Source of the DNA: Sulfuricellaceae bacterium
GTDB taxonomy: Bacteria; Pseudomonadota; Gammaproteobacteria; Burkholderiales; Sulfuricellaceae
DNA length: 64,000 bases
Reading direction: 5' to 3'
NCBI GenBank assembly: GCA_030690895.1
Contig: JAUYFQ010000073.1
Span: 1-64,000 of the forward strand
In this document: positions 31,490 to 38,738 of the stretch, one piece after another
How the letters are laid out: each line of letters opens with the position of its first letter
How positions within the stretch are numbered: the stretch's first letter is position 1
Made by a program: the position numbers and the translations under genes
Notes under the pieces: generated by a model
Database searches by the model: none
What the model saw: only the letters and a program-made list of their open reading frames with translations
What the model was told of the DNA's origin: nothing

Positions 31490-31627
31490 TGAAACAACGC
31501 GAAGCGTTGCCCTCGTCCCCCTCTCCCTCCGGGGGAGGGCGGGGGAGGGGGAAACGGTCATACCCAAAAGGGCGCAAGTGGCGAAGTGTTGTTTCATGAT
31601 TTTGGGTGGCGATTCGCCATGACCGTT
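31490..31627. repeat. nested palindromic region upstream of birA
   Basis: Several interlocking inverted repeats occur. TGAAACAAC (31490-31498) pairs with GTTGTTTCA (31588-31596); AACGGTCAT (31553-31561) with ATGACCGTT (31619-31627); ACCCAAAA (31562-31569) with TTTTGGGT (31600-31607). There is also a TGGCGA-T-TCGCCA stem (31607-31619). Between them lies a CCCTCTCCCTCC/GGGGGAGGG hairpin. The arms overlap, so not all can form at once. There is no gene in the stretch. It may be a dispersed mobile repeat or a terminator region. Confidence 0.65.
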
Positions 31628-32207
31628 AGCCGAACGTTCCGGATTCTTCCGAAAACAGGCCGCTCAGGCCGCGCCGGAGCAGTTCAAGCGCGTTGGGAAC
31701 CTCGATCTCAACGACCTGGTCGATGGTCCACGACTGGTCTTGCTTGGGCATCAGGCCAATGATCATGCTGCCAAGAAAGCGGCGGCACGGGTAGCCAGGT
31801 TCGCCATTTTCGTAGTCGAAGCCCGCATATTCGGCGAGACGTTCGTTGAGTAGCGTGATGAAGCGGGACTGGTAAGATGTGCCTTCTGGCTGCCCAATGT
31901 AGGTGAGCTGATTGTCTTCCAGAATTTCGGCTATGCGCTTGGCAATGGCGCCGATCAGGGCAGCGCGATATTCTTCTTCAACCCTGCCATAGATGAAGCG
32001 GTCGGTATATTGGAGCAGAAAAGCCAGATATTCGGAAATTATGGCAAATCCCTGTTCCTTGGAGCTGATCTGAAAGTCAGCCTGCTGCATGTGCGTCACT
32101 TTTTCTTCGGCAACCCGAAAAATCAGCGAAGCAACGACGGTCGCGACCTGCTGGGGGCTTTTCGCCTCTCCGGTGGTGTGCCACTGACTTCTTACACGAA
32201 TTGCCAT
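31626..32207 (-). CDS. conserved-looking protein of unknown function
   Basis: 193 residues; I do not recognise the family. It is soluble, mostly helical by composition, with an acidic centre (V-E-E-E-Y-R-A-A-L-I-G-A-I-A-K-R-I-A-E-I-L) and two Cys-poor halves, the second containing Y-P-C-R-R-F-L-G-S. It lies four bases after the rhodanese gene on the same strand, so it is very probably translated from the same transcript and may serve sulfur metabolism. Confidence 0.7.
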   Translation of the reverse strand: MAIRVRSQWHTTGEAKSPQQVATVVASLIFRVAEEKVTHMQQADFQISSKEQGFAIISEYLAFLLQYTDRFIYGRVEEEYRAALIGAIAKRIAEILEDNQLTYIGQPEGTSYQSRFITLLNERLAEYAGFDYENGEPGYPCRRFLGSMIIGLMPKQDQSWTIDQVVEIEVPNALELLRRGLSGLFSEESGTFG

Positions 32208-32211
32208 GCCG

Positions 32212-33060
32212 CTACTCTCCTGTTTCCACCGGTCTTCCTGGGTCGGTAATCCAGTCGCTCCATGATCCGGGGTAAAGCCGGGCGCCCTGGAGCCCGGCGT
32301 GTTCCATCGCGATCAGGCTGTGGCAGGCTGTGACACCCGAGCCGCACATGTGGATGACGTTTTCCGGCGCAGTGCCGTCCAGCAATTCCAGATAGGCTTC
32401 GCGCAATTCTTCGACGGGAAGATACGTGCTGTCCATGTCCAGATTATCCTCGAAAGGGTAATTGATGCTGCCCGGTATGTGTCCGGCTACCTTGTCCAGC
32501 GCTTCCCGCTCACCGCTGAACCGCTCTTCCGAACGTGCATCGATGATGAGGTTTTTCTGGTTGAGGATGGCCTGCTCTATACCGGCGGCGTCTACCCACA
32601 TCCGGTCGTCCGGTTGGGCAGTGAATGTCGTTGGCGCGGCATTCGGAATCTCGGTTGCCAGATTCTGTATTTGCTTGCTCCAGCGTTGTATGCCGCCATC
32701 CAGCAGGGCGACGGCATCGTGCCCCAGCCAGCGCAGCAACCACCACATCCGGCATGCCATGGAGCCGAAACTGTCGTCATATACGACTACCTGCTTATTG
32801 CGATCAACCCCCCATTCACCGAGTTTTTTTGCCAGCAAGCTCACATCAGGCAGCGGGTGACGGCCGGTGTTGGCGGTGACCTCTGCAGACAGATCGTTAT
32901 TCAGGTGAGCATAGCGTGCCCCCGGAATATGTCCTTTCAAGTATGCGCGGTATCCTGCCATATCGTCAGAAAGGGTGAACCGACAATCAAAAACGATCCA
33001 CTCGGGATCGTTCAAGTGCTGTGCAAGTTGTTCTGCACTAATCAGGGTGGTGAATTTCAT
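32212..33060 (-). CDS. two-domain rhodanese (thiosulfate/3-mercaptopyruvate sulfurtransferase)
   Basis: 282 residues from the ATG at 33060 (an ATG at 33093 is an alternative). Two rhodanese domains: the inactive N-terminal one (W-I-V-F-D-C-R-F) and the active C-terminal one, whose loop C-G-S-G-V-T-A-C carries the persulfide cysteine near residue 240. C-G-S-G-V-T-A is the SseA/3-mercaptopyruvate type loop. Next to dsr it could load sulfane sulfur onto TusA or DsrE. It is in a minus-strand operon with an RspA-like gene. Confidence 0.9.
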   Translation of the reverse strand: MKFTTLISAEQLAQHLNDPEWIVFDCRFTLSDDMAGYRAYLKGHIPGARYAHLNNDLSAEVTANTGRHPLPDVSLLAKKLGEWGVDRNKQVVVYDDSFGSMACRMWWLLRWLGHDAVALLDGGIQRWSKQIQNLATEIPNAAPTTFTAQPDDRMWVDAAGIEQAILNQKNLIIDARSEERFSGEREALDKVAGHIPGSINYPFEDNLDMDSTYLPVEELREAYLELLDGTAPENVIHMCGSGVTACHSLIAMEHAGLQGARLYPGSWSDWITDPGRPVETGE

Positions 33061-33147
33061 CAGGAACTCATTGCTTGTGGTGCGCAGCGACATCGCCGCC
33101 CACTTTGCGGGCAGCCATTTGGCCGCCGCTGCACGCCACTCGCTTTT

Positions 33148-33480
33148 TTAGTAGCCGCCTTTACCGAATGGCTTGGGCAGGCCGGCTACCTTTGCCGATT
33201 GGCGGTTGGGCTGCATGGGGAACAGGACGTAGAGGTGTTTTTTCCAGTCCGTGCCAGGATTCGATTCGTCAAAATCCTTGCACATATTGCGGAAATTTGG
33301 AGTCTGGCCATGCTCCTTGTACTGATCGCGCATGTAGTTGACCACGAGCCAATGCTCATCGGTCAGTTTGATGTTTTCGGCTTCTGCGATGACTGTCACT
33401 GCTTCATCACTGAAGTTTGCATCAATCAGGAAACCATCATCACATGTTTCAAGTTCTTCGCCGTTAATGACATAACCCAT
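33148..33480 (-). CDS. DsrC/TusE-superfamily protein lacking both redox cysteines (RspA-like)
   Basis: 110 residues, the same length as the DsrC at 38335. The N-terminus M-G-Y-V-I-N-G-E-E-L and the core L-T-D-E-H-W-L-V-V-N-Y-M-R match DsrC, as does K-V-A-G-L-P-K-P at the end. However, the CysB position is Ala96 (QSAKVAG against QACKIAG in DsrC) and the CysA position is not Cys (tail F-G-K-G-G-Y). Members without either cysteine have been called RspA and are thought to be regulatory. It cannot carry the DsrC trisulfide. The two remaining Cys (13 and 67) are elsewhere. Confidence 0.85.
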   Translation of the reverse strand: MGYVINGEELETCDDGFLIDANFSDEAVTVIAEAENIKLTDEHWLVVNYMRDQYKEHGQTPNFRNMCKDFDESNPGTDWKKHLYVLFPMQPNRQSAKVAGLPKPFGKGGY

Positions 33481-33516
33481 GAAAAATCTCCTTGTTTAAG
33501 GGTGGTTTAAGGGCGC

Positions 33517-34182
33517 TCAAGTGAGCGCGTTAATGGATTTGTGGGGTATGAAAATCCCACATCCTATCTTGCGGTAGTTGCCTAGCCCGCGTTGCTGCAC
33601 AAGAATCGAGTGTTCCACTGGCAAGCCGTGCAACATCAGGCTGTAGCCACTTGCTACGCCATCCGCAGTCCGGATGGACTGCCGCCTGCCACAAATGAAA
33701 CGGGAGTCGATTTCCATTTCATCCAGCAGGCGGATTATATCAGCCGCAAAGACCGTTTCGTCATCACTGCCCGTACTTACACAATGCGCGAAAAGAGGAG
33801 TGTGGCGAGTGAGCGGACGCATTTTACCTGCGCCAATCAGCAGCGGCACCCCATCAATTGCGATACTCTGGCCAGACAAGGCGAGAATCTCTTGAACCCG
33901 TATTCTAGGGATTCGGATACTCAATCGAGCCCGCCGATTGAGTATGATTTTAGTCAATCCAGGTTCGGGCGCATGTACAGAGTGGATGCCAGCCAGTTCT
34001 TCGTCGGGTAACCATGGCATCAGTTCGCAAAGTGCCTGAAAAAGCGCATAACCATTGTCGACAGGGATGGAGTGGCCGCTCAGTTCAAACTGCACATCCG
34101 TAACCAGTCCCTCATCTATCGTGGGTGATTCTGCTTGGTAAGCTAGCCAGCCGATTTTGTTTCTCCTTGTGTCTTTGACCAT
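33517..34182 (-). CDS. stand-alone Cas6-like (Cmx6-type) RAMP protein
   Basis: 221 residues. The pattern fits the Cas6/Cmx6 family annotated with type I-MYXAN systems. Points of match are I-P-V-D-N-G-Y-A-L-F-Q-A-L-C-E-L-M-P near the start, R-L-S-I-R-I-P in the middle, F-I-C-G-R-R-Q-S-I-R, and the C-terminal glycine-rich RAMP loop G-L-G-N-Y-R-K-I-G-C-G-I-F-I-P. No CRISPR array or other cas gene is in the window. The gene overlaps the small gene upstream by 40 bases and lies 36 bases before the RspA-like gene, so it belongs to a dsr-divergent operon. The family call is from memory of the motif. Confidence 0.62.
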   Translation of the reverse strand: MVKDTRRNKIGWLAYQAESPTIDEGLVTDVQFELSGHSIPVDNGYALFQALCELMPWLPDEELAGIHSVHAPEPGLTKIILNRRARLSIRIPRIRVQEILALSGQSIAIDGVPLLIGAGKMRPLTRHTPLFAHCVSTGSDDETVFAADIIRLLDEMEIDSRFICGRRQSIRTADGVASGYSLMLHGLPVEHSILVQQRGLGNYRKIGCGIFIPHKSINALT

Positions 34183-34367
34183 TCAAGCAATGCCGTTCCC
34201 CAGCGCTCAGCCGTCGTTGAATCTATCTCGAAAATGGTGAATCGCTTGATTTCTCGAAGCCTGAGCCTGAGTGTGCTAAAACCAGCCGCATGATTGATTT
34301 GCTGCAGTTCGATTTGCTGACGATAAGGCGTTGCCAGGAATTTGTCCAAATCTATAATTTCATCCAT
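34143..34367 (-). CDS. small protein of unknown function
   Basis: 74 residues, starting M-D-E-I-I-D-L-D-K-F-L-A-T-P-Y-R-Q-Q-I-E-L-Q-Q. No cysteine, no membrane helix. The string L-R-L-R-L-R-E-I-K-R-F-T-I-F-E-I-D followed by W-G-T-A-L-L-E-W looks like a small alpha/beta protein. It is the first gene of the minus-strand set divergent from dsrA and overlaps the Cas6-like gene by 40 bases in another frame, which argues for real coupled translation. Confidence 0.65.
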   Translation of the reverse strand: MDEIIDLDKFLATPYRQQIELQQINHAAGFSTLRLRLREIKRFTIFEIDSTTAERWGTALLEWSKTQGETKSAG

Positions 34368-34719
34368 AATGCAGCCTCTGATTTATTATTGCTAGGTTAT
34401 AGCGGGATAAATAAAGCTCATGTCACGGGTCTGCAAGGGATCTACTCCATATGGGTAGTTCTCAGCTAATCCAAGTGGGTGTGCGATCTACGCCCTGTCG
34501 TAGACCGGGGTAGCCGCGAAGAATGATGGTAATGAAAAATACAACGGCTGTAATATTGTCGGCTACTACTGAAGTTCAGATCGCCTGTGTAGTGGTGATA
34601 CTGCAGTTGTGAATTTAATACGAATATAAGCTCGCATAGAAGAGTTGATTAATTAACCTAGATGGCTAGGCCGGGTGAAACTGGCGCAGCTGGTTGTTAC
34701 TTTTTTTTGGAGAAAACGC
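34368..34719. promoter_or_regulatory. divergent dsr / RspA-operon control region
   Basis: 352 bases without a gene, AT-richer than the flanks. It holds three palindromes: CTACT-CCATATGG-GTAG (34442-34458, operator-like), TCTACG...CGTAGA (34487-34504) and CCTAG-ATGG-CTAGG (34657-34670). No convincing -35/-10 pair with good spacing was found; TATAAG (34625-34630) is the best -10 candidate for dsrA. The dsr operon of related bacteria is induced by reduced sulfur, so regulator sites are expected here. Confidence 0.6.
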
Positions 34720-36012
34720 ATGGCTAAAAAAATGCACGATACGCCTAACCTGGATCAACTTGAGAGCGGTCCTTGGCCAAGCTTCGTTACGGGCTTGAAG
34801 CGCGAGGCGGCTAAAAAAGACATCATGGTCGATCTGATGGGTCAACTTGAAGCGTCTTACAAGACCAAAAAAGGCTACTGGAAAGGCGGTACGGTCGGTG
34901 TGTTCGGTTACGGCGGCGGCGTGATTCCTCGCTTCACTGAACTGAAAGACGAAAACGAGAATCCGGTTTTTCCTGATGCAGCCGAATTCCACACGCTGCG
35001 CATTCAGCCTCCAGCAGGCATGCACTACGATACGGGCACGCTGCGCAAGTTCTGTGATATCTGGGATAAATATGGTTCCGGTTTGATTGCATTCCACGGT
35101 CAGTCTGGCGACATCATGTTCCAGGGCTGTACAACTGCAAACGTTCAGCCGTCCTGGGAAGAGTTCAACGCAATGGGTTTTGACCTGGGTGGCGCAGGTC
35201 CTGCGCTGCGTACTTCCATGTCTTGCGTTGGTGCTGCCCGCTGCGAAATGTCTTGCTACGATGAAGCCAAGGCTCTGCGCACCATTATCAACAACAATCT
35301 GGACGATATGCACCGTCCAGCATTGCCTTACAAATTCAAATTCAAATTCTCTGGCTGCCCGAATGACTGCGTAAATGCTATTCAGCGTTCCGACATGGCA
35401 ACCATCGGTACTTGGCGTGACAATATTCGTGTTGATGAGGCGATTGCCCGTGATTACATGAAAAGCCACGGCATGGACAAGTTGGTAAACGACGTGATCA
35501 GCAAGTGCCCAACCCGTGCAATCACCTTGCGTAACAAGGCTGATGCAGTTGGTGGCGATAGCGTGTCGACCGTTGCAGTCGACGATCAACATGTTATGCA
35601 AATTGAAAATCACGATTGTGTACGTTGCATGCACTGCCTGAATGTGATGCCGGGCGCGTTGTTGCCTGGTAACGATAAAGGCGTGACAATCCTGGTTGGC
35701 GGCAAGAGCGTTCTGAAAATCGGCGCAACCATGGGTACAGTCGTGATCCCGTTCATGAAGATGGAGTCCGATGAGGACTTCGAGAAGTTGAATGAACTGT
35801 CCCGCAATATTCTGGACTTCTTTGCTGAAAATGCGCTGGAACATGAGCGTACCGGCGAGATGATCGAGCGTATCGGTCTGGTGAACTTCCTTGAAGGTCT
35901 GGATATCGAGATTGATCCATCCATGATTTCGCACCCACGCTCTAACCCATATGTCCGTATGGATGATTGGGAAGAGGAAGCTGAAAAGTGGAACGAGCGT
36001 AAATCTGCCTAA
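34720..36012 (+). CDS. dsrA: reverse-type dissimilatory sulfite reductase, alpha subunit
   Basis: 430 residues, start at 34720 with a TTTGGAGA ribosome site. DsrA with DsrB forms the siroheme [4Fe-4S] enzyme that oxidises DsrC-bound sulfur to sulfite. The siroheme-cluster cysteines are C169-X5-C175 (S-C-V-G-A-A-R-C) and C213-X3-C217 (G-C-P-N-D-C). An added ferredoxin cluster is given by S-K-C-P-T-R-A-I and C-V-R-C-M-H-C (about 265-325). Direction (oxidative) is inferred from the gene set: dsrEFH and dsrL present, no dsrD seen. Confidence 0.97.
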   Translation: MAKKMHDTPNLDQLESGPWPSFVTGLKREAAKKDIMVDLMGQLEASYKTKKGYWKGGTVGVFGYGGGVIPRFTELKDENENPVFPDAAEFHTLRIQPPAGMHYDTGTLRKFCDIWDKYGSGLIAFHGQSGDIMFQGCTTANVQPSWEEFNAMGFDLGGAGPALRTSMSCVGAARCEMSCYDEAKALRTIINNNLDDMHRPALPYKFKFKFSGCPNDCVNAIQRSDMATIGTWRDNIRVDEAIARDYMKSHGMDKLVNDVISKCPTRAITLRNKADAVGGDSVSTVAVDDQHVMQIENHDCVRCMHCLNVMPGALLPGNDKGVTILVGGKSVLKIGATMGTVVIPFMKMESDEDFEKLNELSRNILDFFAENALEHERTGEMIERIGLVNFLEGLDIEIDPSMISHPRSNPYVRMDDWEEEAEKWNERKSA

Positions 36013-36057: not shown

Positions 36058-37128
36058 ATGGCTGAATTGCGTGCTCCTGATGAGTGCGGCGTACCAGATC
36101 CGGCGCCCTTCATGCACCCTGCCCTGAAAAAGAATTACGGCAAGTGGGTGTTTCACAATCATCCCAAGCCCGGTGTGCTGTATCACCGTGCCGAAGGTGG
36201 TGACGAGGTTTGGACTGTTAAATGCGGTACTGCTCGTCAAATGGATCTTTATACCATCCGTCTGTTATGCGACATCGCTGACAAACACGCCGATGGCCAT
36301 ATGCGGTTTACAACCCGCAGCAACGTGGAGTTTATGGTCACAGCGGCCAGCAAGGTTGATCCGCTGATCAAGGAACTGAACGAGCATGGCTTCCCGGTTG
36401 GCGGCACGGCAAACTCCGTATCCATGATCGCGCATACTCAGGGCTGGTTGCATTGCGACATTCCTGGTACGGATGCATCCGGTGTGGTAAAGGCGCTGAT
36501 GGACGAGTTGTATGACGAATTCATCAAGTGTGAAATGCCTAACCGCGTGAAACTGTCGACTTCCTGCTGCGAAATCAACTGTGGTGGTCAAGCCGACATC
36601 GCGATTATTGTTCAGCATACCAAGCCGCCAAAAATCAACCATGACATCGTGGCAAACGTTTGTGAACGCCCGACCGTCGTGGCTCGTTGCCCAGTGGCTG
36701 CAATTCGCCCTGCCTTGGTCAACGGCAAGCCATCGCTGGAAGTGGATGAGAAGAAGTGCATTTGCTGCGGCGCCTGCTTCCCTCCATGCCCTCCAATGCA
36801 GATCAACGATCCAGAGCATTCCAAGATTGCGATCTGGGTGGGTGGCAAGAACTCCAATGCTCGATCCAAGCCGACTTTCCACAAGTTGGTGGCAGCTGGG
36901 CTTCCGAACAATTCGCCGCGCTGGCCTGAAGTTAGTGCCGTGGTCAAAAAAATTCTCGCGGTTTACAAGGCTGACGCTCAGGCTTGGGAACGCATTGGCG
37001 ACTGGATTGACCGCATTGGCTGGCCACGTTTCTTTGAAAAGACCGGTTTGCCGTTCACCAAGTTCCATATTGATGACTGGCGCGGTTCACGCTCTACCCT
37101 GAACGCATCTGCACATATCAGGTTTTAA
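36058..37128 (+). CDS. dsrB: reverse-type dissimilatory sulfite reductase, beta subunit
   Basis: 356 residues. The siroheme-region motif T-S-C-C-E-I-N-C-G-G is near residue 165. The ferredoxin-like insert C-I-C-C-G-A-C-F-P-P-C-P near 240 binds a [4Fe-4S] cluster. A GAGAG ribosome site lies directly upstream, 45 bases after dsrA. A strong hairpin follows the stop and may set the dsrAB to dsrE ratio. Confidence 0.97.
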   Translation: MAELRAPDECGVPDPAPFMHPALKKNYGKWVFHNHPKPGVLYHRAEGGDEVWTVKCGTARQMDLYTIRLLCDIADKHADGHMRFTTRSNVEFMVTAASKVDPLIKELNEHGFPVGGTANSVSMIAHTQGWLHCDIPGTDASGVVKALMDELYDEFIKCEMPNRVKLSTSCCEINCGGQADIAIIVQHTKPPKINHDIVANVCERPTVVARCPVAAIRPALVNGKPSLEVDEKKCICCGACFPPCPPMQINDPEHSKIAIWVGGKNSNARSKPTFHKLVAAGLPNNSPRWPEVSAVVKKILAVYKADAQAWERIGDWIDRIGWPRFFEKTGLPFTKFHIDDWRGSRSTLNASAHIRF

Positions 37129-37140
37129 TGTGGTTTGACG

Positions 37141-37180
37141 CTGATCACGGGATCAACCCGTGATCAGGGTTGATTTTTTT
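37141..37180 (+). terminator. strong hairpin with T-run between dsrB and dsrE
   Basis: A perfect 11-base stem CTGATCACGGG (37141-37151) / CCCGTGATCAG (37157-37167) with loop ATCAA. A run of seven T is reached seven bases further on. The T-run is slightly displaced, which suits a partial (read-through) terminator or an RNA-stability stem that protects the dsrAB message. Confidence 0.7.
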
Positions 37181-38334: not shown

Positions 38335-38667
38335 ATGGGCTTCGAAATTAACGGAAAGACCTACGAAACTGATGAAGAAGGTTACCTGGTTAACCTGGCT
38401 GAGTGGGACGAAGAGGCAGCCAAGTTCCTGGCAATTGAAGAAAAGGTCGAAATGACCGATCAACACTGGGAAGTGATCAATTTCCTGCGCGAATACTACA
38501 ACGACTACCAGATCGCACCTGCTGTTCGCGTTCTGACCAAGGCGATTGGCAAGAAGCTCGGGCCAGAAAAGGGCAACAGCAAATACCTGTACGAACTGTT
38601 TCCATACGGTCCAGCAAAACAGGCTTGTAAAATTGCTGGTTTGCCAAAGCCAACAGGCTGTATCTAA
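38335..38667 (+). CDS. dsrC: sulfur carrier protein DsrC
   Basis: 110 residues. Both redox cysteines are present in the flexible C-terminal arm: Cys98 (Q-A-C-K-I-A-G) and penultimate Cys109 (T-G-C-I). DsrC carries sulfur from DsrE to DsrAB and returns electrons through DsrK. A good ribosome site (AAGGAGA) precedes it. Two hairpins directly downstream could stabilise a separate, abundant dsrC message. Compare the cysteine-free paralogue at 33148. Confidence 0.97.
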   Translation: MGFEINGKTYETDEEGYLVNLAEWDEEAAKFLAIEEKVEMTDQHWEVINFLREYYNDYQIAPAVRVLTKAIGKKLGPEKGNSKYLYELFPYGPAKQACKIAGLPKPTGCI

Positions 38668-38675
38668 GCAATAAT

Positions 38676-38738
38676 CAGGTGCTGAGGGGGCTTAGTCCCC
38701 TCAACCTGTCAAAATAAATTGGCAAGAATGTTCTTGCC
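38676..38738 (+). terminator. two tandem hairpins between dsrC and dsrM
   Basis: The first stem is CAGGT...TGAGGGG / CCCCTCA...ACCTG (38676-38708, GC bulge). The second is a perfect GGCAAGAA-TG-TTCTTGCC (38721-38738). Neither is followed by a T-run, so they look more like transcript-end stabilisers or attenuators than full terminators. Confidence 0.65.

Follow-up and report, generated by a model that had tools for sequence, protein, structure and literature searches.

Why should a gene of the Cas6 family, annotated as part of a clustered regularly interspaced short palindromic repeats (CRISPR) system, lie beside the genes for dissimilatory sulfite reductase (Dsr)? The question is raised by a 64,000-nucleotide stretch of DNA from a Sulfuricellaceae bacterium (contig JAUYFQ010000073.1, positions 1 to 64,000), referred to here as the window. 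Much biological sulfur oxidation, that of animal symbionts included, runs through the reverse Dsr pathway, about whose control little is understood. Facing the dsr operon are genes for a DUF6967 protein, a Cas6-like protein, a DsrC-like protein, a rhodanese and a protein of 193 amino acids (aa). Open reading frame (ORF) calls on the window confirmed that all five lie on the minus strand, divergent from dsrAB, and reproduced the coordinates of the initial annotation, with an overlap of 40 bases (34143-34182) and gaps of 36, 87 (counted from the inner Met of the rhodanese) and 4 bases. The module is dedicated to dsr. We see about an even chance that the set is a non-CRISPR accessory module that tunes or assembles the reverse sulfite reductase, either via decoy contacts of the DsrC-like protein or via RNA binding.

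The distribution of the genes was examined in 274 genomes drawn evenly from the Gammaproteobacteria (GTDB sense), with dsrA called at E below 1e-25 and the Cas6-like gene called by PF09559. The Cas6-like gene was found in 91 genomes and dsrA in 94; both were present in 87, only the Cas6-like gene in 4, only dsrA in 7, and neither in 176 (Fisher p 2e-57). Of the 234 genomes in which the 193-aa family was sought, 76 carried it, and the corresponding counts were 72 with both, 4 with the 193-aa family only, 8 with dsrA only and 150 with neither (p 1e-45). The four genomes carrying the 193-aa family without dsrA are exactly the four that carry only the Cas6-like gene. When the two families were compared with each other, 74 of the 234 genomes had both, 2 only the 193-aa family, 4 only the Cas6-like gene and 154 neither. 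A family annotated as CRISPR-related and another with no annotation track dsrA in the class as faithfully as would be expected of pathway components, though both are missing from the pathway accounts examined.

In all four genomes with the Cas6-like gene only, the contig ends 0.9-2.3 kilobases (kb) from this gene on the dsr side, and in five of the seven with dsrA only it ends within 2 kb 5' of dsrA. G259, also a dsrA-only genome, is 55% complete. Both genes are retained in reduced genomes of 1.0-1.6 megabases. Beyond the class, the Cas6-like gene was present in four of 299 genomes of the phylum, all dsrA-bearing and all from the order of the window. In the window's own family (22 genomes), PF09559 was found in 20, dsrA in 20, and both in 18. 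Several genomes of this family (G016, G003, G005, G007, G010 and G011) carry two full copies of dsrA, only one of which, judging by coordinates, is near the Cas6-like gene.

Scattering of the five genes in relatives, which the initial annotation had named as a refuting outcome, was not seen in betaproteobacterial loci. These were the best 80 of 190 relatives found when the Cas6-like protein was used to scan GTDB genomes; most are Sulfuricella, Sulfurimicrobium, Thiobacillus, Hydrogenophilales or unclassified proteobacteria. The complete order DUF6967, Cas6-like, DsrC-like, rhodanese and 193-aa was present in 64 of the 80, the last four genes were in order in 72, and the Cas6-like gene was followed by the DsrC-like gene in 78; dsrA lies upstream on the opposite strand in 75. 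The gammaproteobacterial loci comprised 88 neighbourhoods from the 91 matching genomes of the class, leaving out the window's own genome, G280 and G285 (broken matches). Here, the usual arrangement is dsrA divergent from a gene for a TauD-like 2-oxoglutarate oxygenase, often one for a 235-aa protein, the Cas6-like gene, the DsrC paralog and often a gene for a 69-aa protein. The DsrC paralog adjoins the Cas6-like gene in 67/88 of these loci, and the 193-aa gene is near the cluster in about 35. DUF6967 directly precedes the Cas6-like gene in 71/80 betaproteobacterial loci but in only 3/88 gammaproteobacterial loci, and the rhodanese gene is beside the cluster in 4/88. DUF6967 and the rhodanese are mostly betaproteobacterial additions. 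The TauD-like gene adjoins the Cas6-like cluster in 61/80 betaproteobacterial and 64/88 gammaproteobacterial loci; in the genome of the window it lies apart from dsr, on another contig (C158:577-1452, locus L309; E 2e-131).

The proposal that the five genes form one set therefore holds in betaproteobacteria only, and the wider core consists of the Cas6-like gene, the DsrC paralog and the 193-aa gene, usually with the TauD-like oxygenase. The common sulfur-linked task suggested in the initial annotation for all five can be upheld firmly for the Cas6-like and 193-aa proteins on the genome counts above, and reasonably for the DsrC-like protein given its place in the gammaproteobacterial loci. It finds little support for DUF6967, which was detected in only 7 of the 274 genomes, two of them without dsrA, or for the rhodanese.

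Two further families recur in the gammaproteobacterial loci. In 43/88, the DsrC paralog is followed by the 69-aa family, which has a LIxxMLEMQKKF core and lies about 1.2 kb past the start of the Cas6-like gene (L162-L249), and the 235-aa family directly precedes the Cas6-like gene in 34/88. A representative of each gave no Pfam match. A 65-aa family in 73 loci was dropped, as it proved to be a shadow frame inside the TauD-like gene.

Passive linkage would account for the association without any functional coupling, with vertical descent and joint horizontal transfer keeping the genes together with dsr. The distances among the Cas6-like proteins do correlate with those among the DsrA proteins (Spearman 0.76 over 131 loci), which speaks for a dsr-dedicated module but which linked inheritance would also predict, and the betaproteobacterial and gammaproteobacterial groups each fall on one side of a branch in the tree of Cas6-like proteins. 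However, many genomes carry the 193-aa gene at a distance from dsr, or on a separate contig, and it still co-occurs with dsr, and the Cas6-like gene is kept in the reduced genomes. Linkage of this kind is considered rather improbable.

The Cas6-like gene is present as a single copy in the genome of the window. The AlphaFold2 model of its product (predicted local distance difference test score, pLDDT, 87.3; predicted template-modelling score 0.82) best matches, among solved structures, chain 8fcj_B, the Cas6 of a type I-B CRISPR-associated transposon (Foldseek E 3.3e-17, template-modelling score 0.81; VIA Z 26.0, root-mean-square deviation (rmsd) 1.9 over 199 residues), with further Cas6 chains at Z 16.6 and below. 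As judged by this model, the protein can be assigned with confidence the tandem ferredoxin-like fold of Cas6.

An ordinary role would be that of a Cas6 processing CRISPR RNA for a system elsewhere in the genome, the position beside dsr being due to chance. The NCBIfam name of the matching family, cas6_cmx6, would agree with this, as would one Cas1 on another contig of the same genome and a weak association with Cas1 in the 274 genomes (both 43, Cas6-like only 48, Cas1 only 62, neither 121; odds ratio 1.75, p 0.035). However, as these counts show, 48 of the 91 carriers have no Cas1 match, and the place of the gene beside dsrAB is conserved. Thirteen cas queries gave no match in the 188 stretches scanned and matches in six of seven CRISPR controls; the cas3, cas5, cas7 and cas8 genes that accompany cas6 in a type I-MYXAN system were thus not found next to the Cas6-like gene. 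No CRISPR array was found in the window, and array-like repeats (3 copies) were seen in 1 of 171 loci by a test that is weak, having detected only 2 of 7 controls. This explanation is already contradicted and is left with hardly any credence. No relative of the Cas6-like protein was found among 34 pattern matches in viral contigs.

In a tree of 65 rows, the dsr-linked proteins are separated from seven CRISPR-linked ones by a branch at 100/99, though these seven, all from cyanobacterial plasmids, are the only CRISPR-linked sequences included and the tool warns of long branches. Six of the seven plasmid relatives examined sit in real cas operons. In a Gloeobacter plasmid (L273, 5974-6765), the Cmx6 gene lies outside any annotated cas operon, flanked by a gene of the PAPS-reductase family and by uncharacterised ones; here, too, the family may serve a purpose other than CRISPR.

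Compared with Cas6/Cmx6 of types I-MYXAN and I-B, the dsr-linked proteins share the fold, the Gly-rich C-terminal loop and conserved D42 and R90, but they have no cas operon nearby, are neutral in charge, form their own clade and show near-invariant residues of their own (W57, R84, E142, G165, H214 and K215). In the 169 dsr-linked rows from which residues were counted, gap rows included, the loop glycines G199, G201, G207 and G209 are conserved at 98-100%; the loop and R90 are common to the dsr-linked and CRISPR-linked proteins. At position 43, the start of helix 1 and the site of the catalytic His in other Cas6 proteins, 133 of the 169 have His, 29 have Asn and 5 have Ser, with Asp also occurring. 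The window protein has Asn, accompanied by H67, and 8fcj_B also aligns with Asn there; in a Thiobacillus-type clade, N43 or S43 is combined with Q67. The isoelectric point of the core is 6.76 in the window protein, with a median of 7.0 in the 169 dsr-linked proteins versus 9.5 in the seven CRISPR-linked ones, and the window protein lacks the basic charge expected of an RNA-binding Cas6. RNA cleavage therefore appears unlikely as a common function of the dsr-linked proteins, because basic charge has been lost and the helix-1 His is absent in some clades.

The DsrC-like protein retains the LYxLFP...P.KQ core and scores over the cut-offs of both PF04358 and TIGR03342, in common with DsrC and TusE. 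It differs from them in that both DsrC cysteines are replaced in nearly all members and the tail is KGGY instead of TGC(I/V). Tyr occupies the column of the DsrC penultimate Cys in 145 of 147 paralogs that lie beside a Cas6-like gene, whereas 116 of 117 true DsrC proteins carry Cys there, in a GC(I/V) tail. In place of the second Cys, most of the 147 paralogs have A, G or V, and 15 have Cys. In the window, the tail reads AKVAGLPKPFGKGGY, and the protein has neither the penultimate nor the second Cys of the C-terminal arm that would identify a DsrC sulfur carrier. As the alignment puts the Tyr of an invariant KGGY tail where DsrC has its penultimate Cys, the paralog would be unable to run the DsrC redox cycle or to carry sulfur.

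Venceslau and colleagues reportedly introduced in 2014 the name RspA, and the idea behind it, for Cys-less DsrC paralogs of sulfur oxidizers. The window protein, called RspA-like in the initial annotation, corresponds to RspA in being a DsrC-family protein without redox Cys in a dsr genome, and is probably RspA. Neither the invariant KGGY tail nor a coupling of RspA to a gene of the Cas6 family and to the 193-aa protein is known to have been described in that work.

Expression data for related genes are available from two sources. The top-100 transcripts of a lucinid symbiont include a DsrC/TusE gene that lies six gene numbers past the inferred position of dsrA (PMC13137333); this gene may be the KGGY paralog. 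For A. vinosum on pyrite, PMC11267869 reports a decrease of one DsrC-family paralog, Alvin_1508, along with the dsr genes, and an increase of three others.

Membership of the TusE family and the RNA-binding ancestry of Cas6 could also point to tRNA thiolation or another Tus-type function, in which the two proteins would act together on tRNA. Such a function is regarded as very improbable: the sulfur-carrying Cys is gone, and the partner genes follow dsrA and are not general.

Control at the RNA level was considered next to the protein-level reading. The Cas6-like protein would bind, and in most clades cleave, a hairpin in dsr mRNA and so set unequal levels of dsrAB, dsrEFHC and dsrMKL mRNA from one operon. 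Apart from the Cas6 fold, the loop glycines and the prevalence of the helix-1 His, this draws on the folding of the intergenic regions, for which up to 25 loci in each group were compared with mononucleotide shuffles, 15 of each sequence. Excess folding was found at dsrC-dsrM in both groups (median z -3.8 in betaproteobacterial and -3.4 in gammaproteobacterial loci, 25 loci each), and a GC-rich hairpin follows dsrC in most loci of both, its stem being maintained as the sequence varies. At dsrB-dsrE, excess folding was confined to betaproteobacterial loci, most of which have a similarly placed hairpin that is absent from most gammaproteobacterial ones. Unequal transcript levels are also on record, dsrEFH and dsrC mRNA exceeding that of dsrA on sulfide (Grimm 2010, as related in PMC3397948).

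However, the dsrC-dsrM hairpin is missing from the small-genome loci L232, L237 and L244 despite the presence of the Cas6-like gene, and is present in L285, L286, L287 and L289, which are from genomes without a Cas6-like match. No common sequence motif was apparent by eye among the dsrC-dsrM hairpins. The neutral charge of the protein and the residues at 43 and 67 in the Thiobacillus-type clade likewise speak against this mechanism, and in A. vinosum a separate promoter serves dsrC (PMC11267869). Control of dsr mRNA by the Cas6-like protein is therefore rated as possible though doubtful, and the hairpins at dsrC-dsrM and dsrB-dsrE were not adopted as its target, since their presence does not follow that of the gene.

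On balance, a decoy or assembly role at the protein level seems slightly more likely than control of RNA: neither the charge nor the helix-1 His is preserved, and the presence of the candidate hairpins does not track that of the gene. In such a role, the DsrC paralog would keep the DsrC fold and dock on the partners of DsrC (DsrAB, DsrEFH or DsrMKJOP), where it might act as a decoy, an assembly aid or a gate. The Cas6-like and 193-aa proteins would act as partners of the paralog, coupling its state to the expression of dsr or to enzyme assembly.

Several observations weigh against a dsr-dedicated module of this kind. The dsrA-only genome G232 has 6.7 kb of sequence 5' of dsrA without the set, and in the window's own family the Cas6-like gene occurs without dsrA in G008 and G013 and dsrA without the Cas6-like gene in G009 and G012. 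Adjacency of the DsrC paralog to the Cas6-like gene is not universal in the gammaproteobacterial loci. The retained Gly-rich loop and R90, together with the dsr-specific R84, H214 and K215, would also fit an RNA ligand. Finally, no Cas6-family match was found in 48 dsrA-bearing genomes of other classes in the phylum, and the protein is therefore not needed for every Dsr system. Neighbourhoods were viewed for 10 of these 48, as part of 19 regions that also included six gammaproteobacterial genomes without a match and three members of the order. Four of the 10 have DUF6967 beside the TauD-like gene, divergent from dsrA, with no Cas6-like gene or DsrC paralog; four lack dsrEFH within the stretch and are possibly reductive; one has dsrEFH and none of the set; and in one the contig starts 1.1 kb upstream.

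As a tentative evolutionary account, a Cas6 endoribonuclease may have left CRISPR once, either before the split of the betaproteobacterial and gammaproteobacterial groups or in one lineage that spread with dsr, and become an obligatory part of oxidative Dsr metabolism. Its partners would be a DsrC mimic without redox function and a new helical protein, with which it would form a control device that reads the state of DsrC and sets dsr RNA or enzyme assembly, in effect a regulator of an energy pathway derived from a Cas protein. If confirmed, the module would offer concrete gene targets for assembly or regulation of reverse Dsr and would exemplify the recruitment of a Cas protein to metabolism; it would also caution that annotations as 'type I-MYXAN Cas6' in sulfur oxidizers need not mean CRISPR genes. 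The accessory genes dsrN, dsrR and dsrS are also found near the dsr operon; the present set resembles them as extra genes beside it, but consists of unrelated families and is divergent from dsrA. No description of the module was found in the open literature searched on Cas6 with dsr, Cmx6, RspA with DsrC, Alvin_1247-1250 and Cas6 exaptation, subscription papers being mostly outside this search.

The rhodanese has two PF00581 stretches and a CGSGVTA loop. It scores 145.1 bits against the SseA 3-mercaptopyruvate sulfurtransferase equivalog NF008557, below the cut-off of 250. The 193-aa protein is all helical in its AlphaFold2 model (pLDDT 89.5), for which Foldseek gave no match at E below 0.001. 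In VIA, a Cbp3 homolog ranked highest (Z 9.0, rmsd 4.7, 159 residues), a similarity that may reflect only a common helical arrangement.

Table 1. Features of the five-gene set and the adjoining dsr genes in the window.
Feature	Position	Strand	Basis
DUF6967 protein (74 aa), leading the set	34143..34367	-	PF22295, 89.1 bits (cut-off 27)
Cas6-family protein, 221 aa	33517..34182	-	PF09559, 199.5 bits (cut-off 26.7); TIGR02807 cas6_cmx6, 146.3 bits (cut-off 98.85)
DsrC-family paralog, 110 aa, C-terminus KGGY	33148..33480	-	PF04358, 102.9 bits (cut-off 24.9)
Two-domain rhodanese, mercaptopyruvate-sulfurtransferase-like	32212..33093 (inner Met start 33060)	-	PF00581, 110.7 bits (cut-off 22.2)
193-aa helical protein	31626..32207	-	No Pfam/NCBIfam family over cut-off
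Divergent intergenic region, five-gene set/dsrA	34368..34719	.	Read directly
dsrA	34720..36012	+	TIGR02064, 523.5 bits
dsrB	36058..37128	+	TIGR02066, 509.3 bits
11-bp perfect hairpin, dsrB/dsrE interval	37141..37167	+	Read from sequence
dsrC proper, tail GLPKPTGCI	38335..38667	+	ORF
GC-rich hairpin, dsrC/dsrM interval	38676..38708	+	Excess folding in the betaproteobacterial and gammaproteobacterial loci sampled

An Rfam search of the whole window gave no matches. In a wider stretch around the intergenic region between the set and dsrA, six promoter-like matches were counted versus 2.8 expected. A G+C-rich inverted stretch at 31500-31560, in the interval between the 193-aa gene and birA, possibly marks a transcript end.

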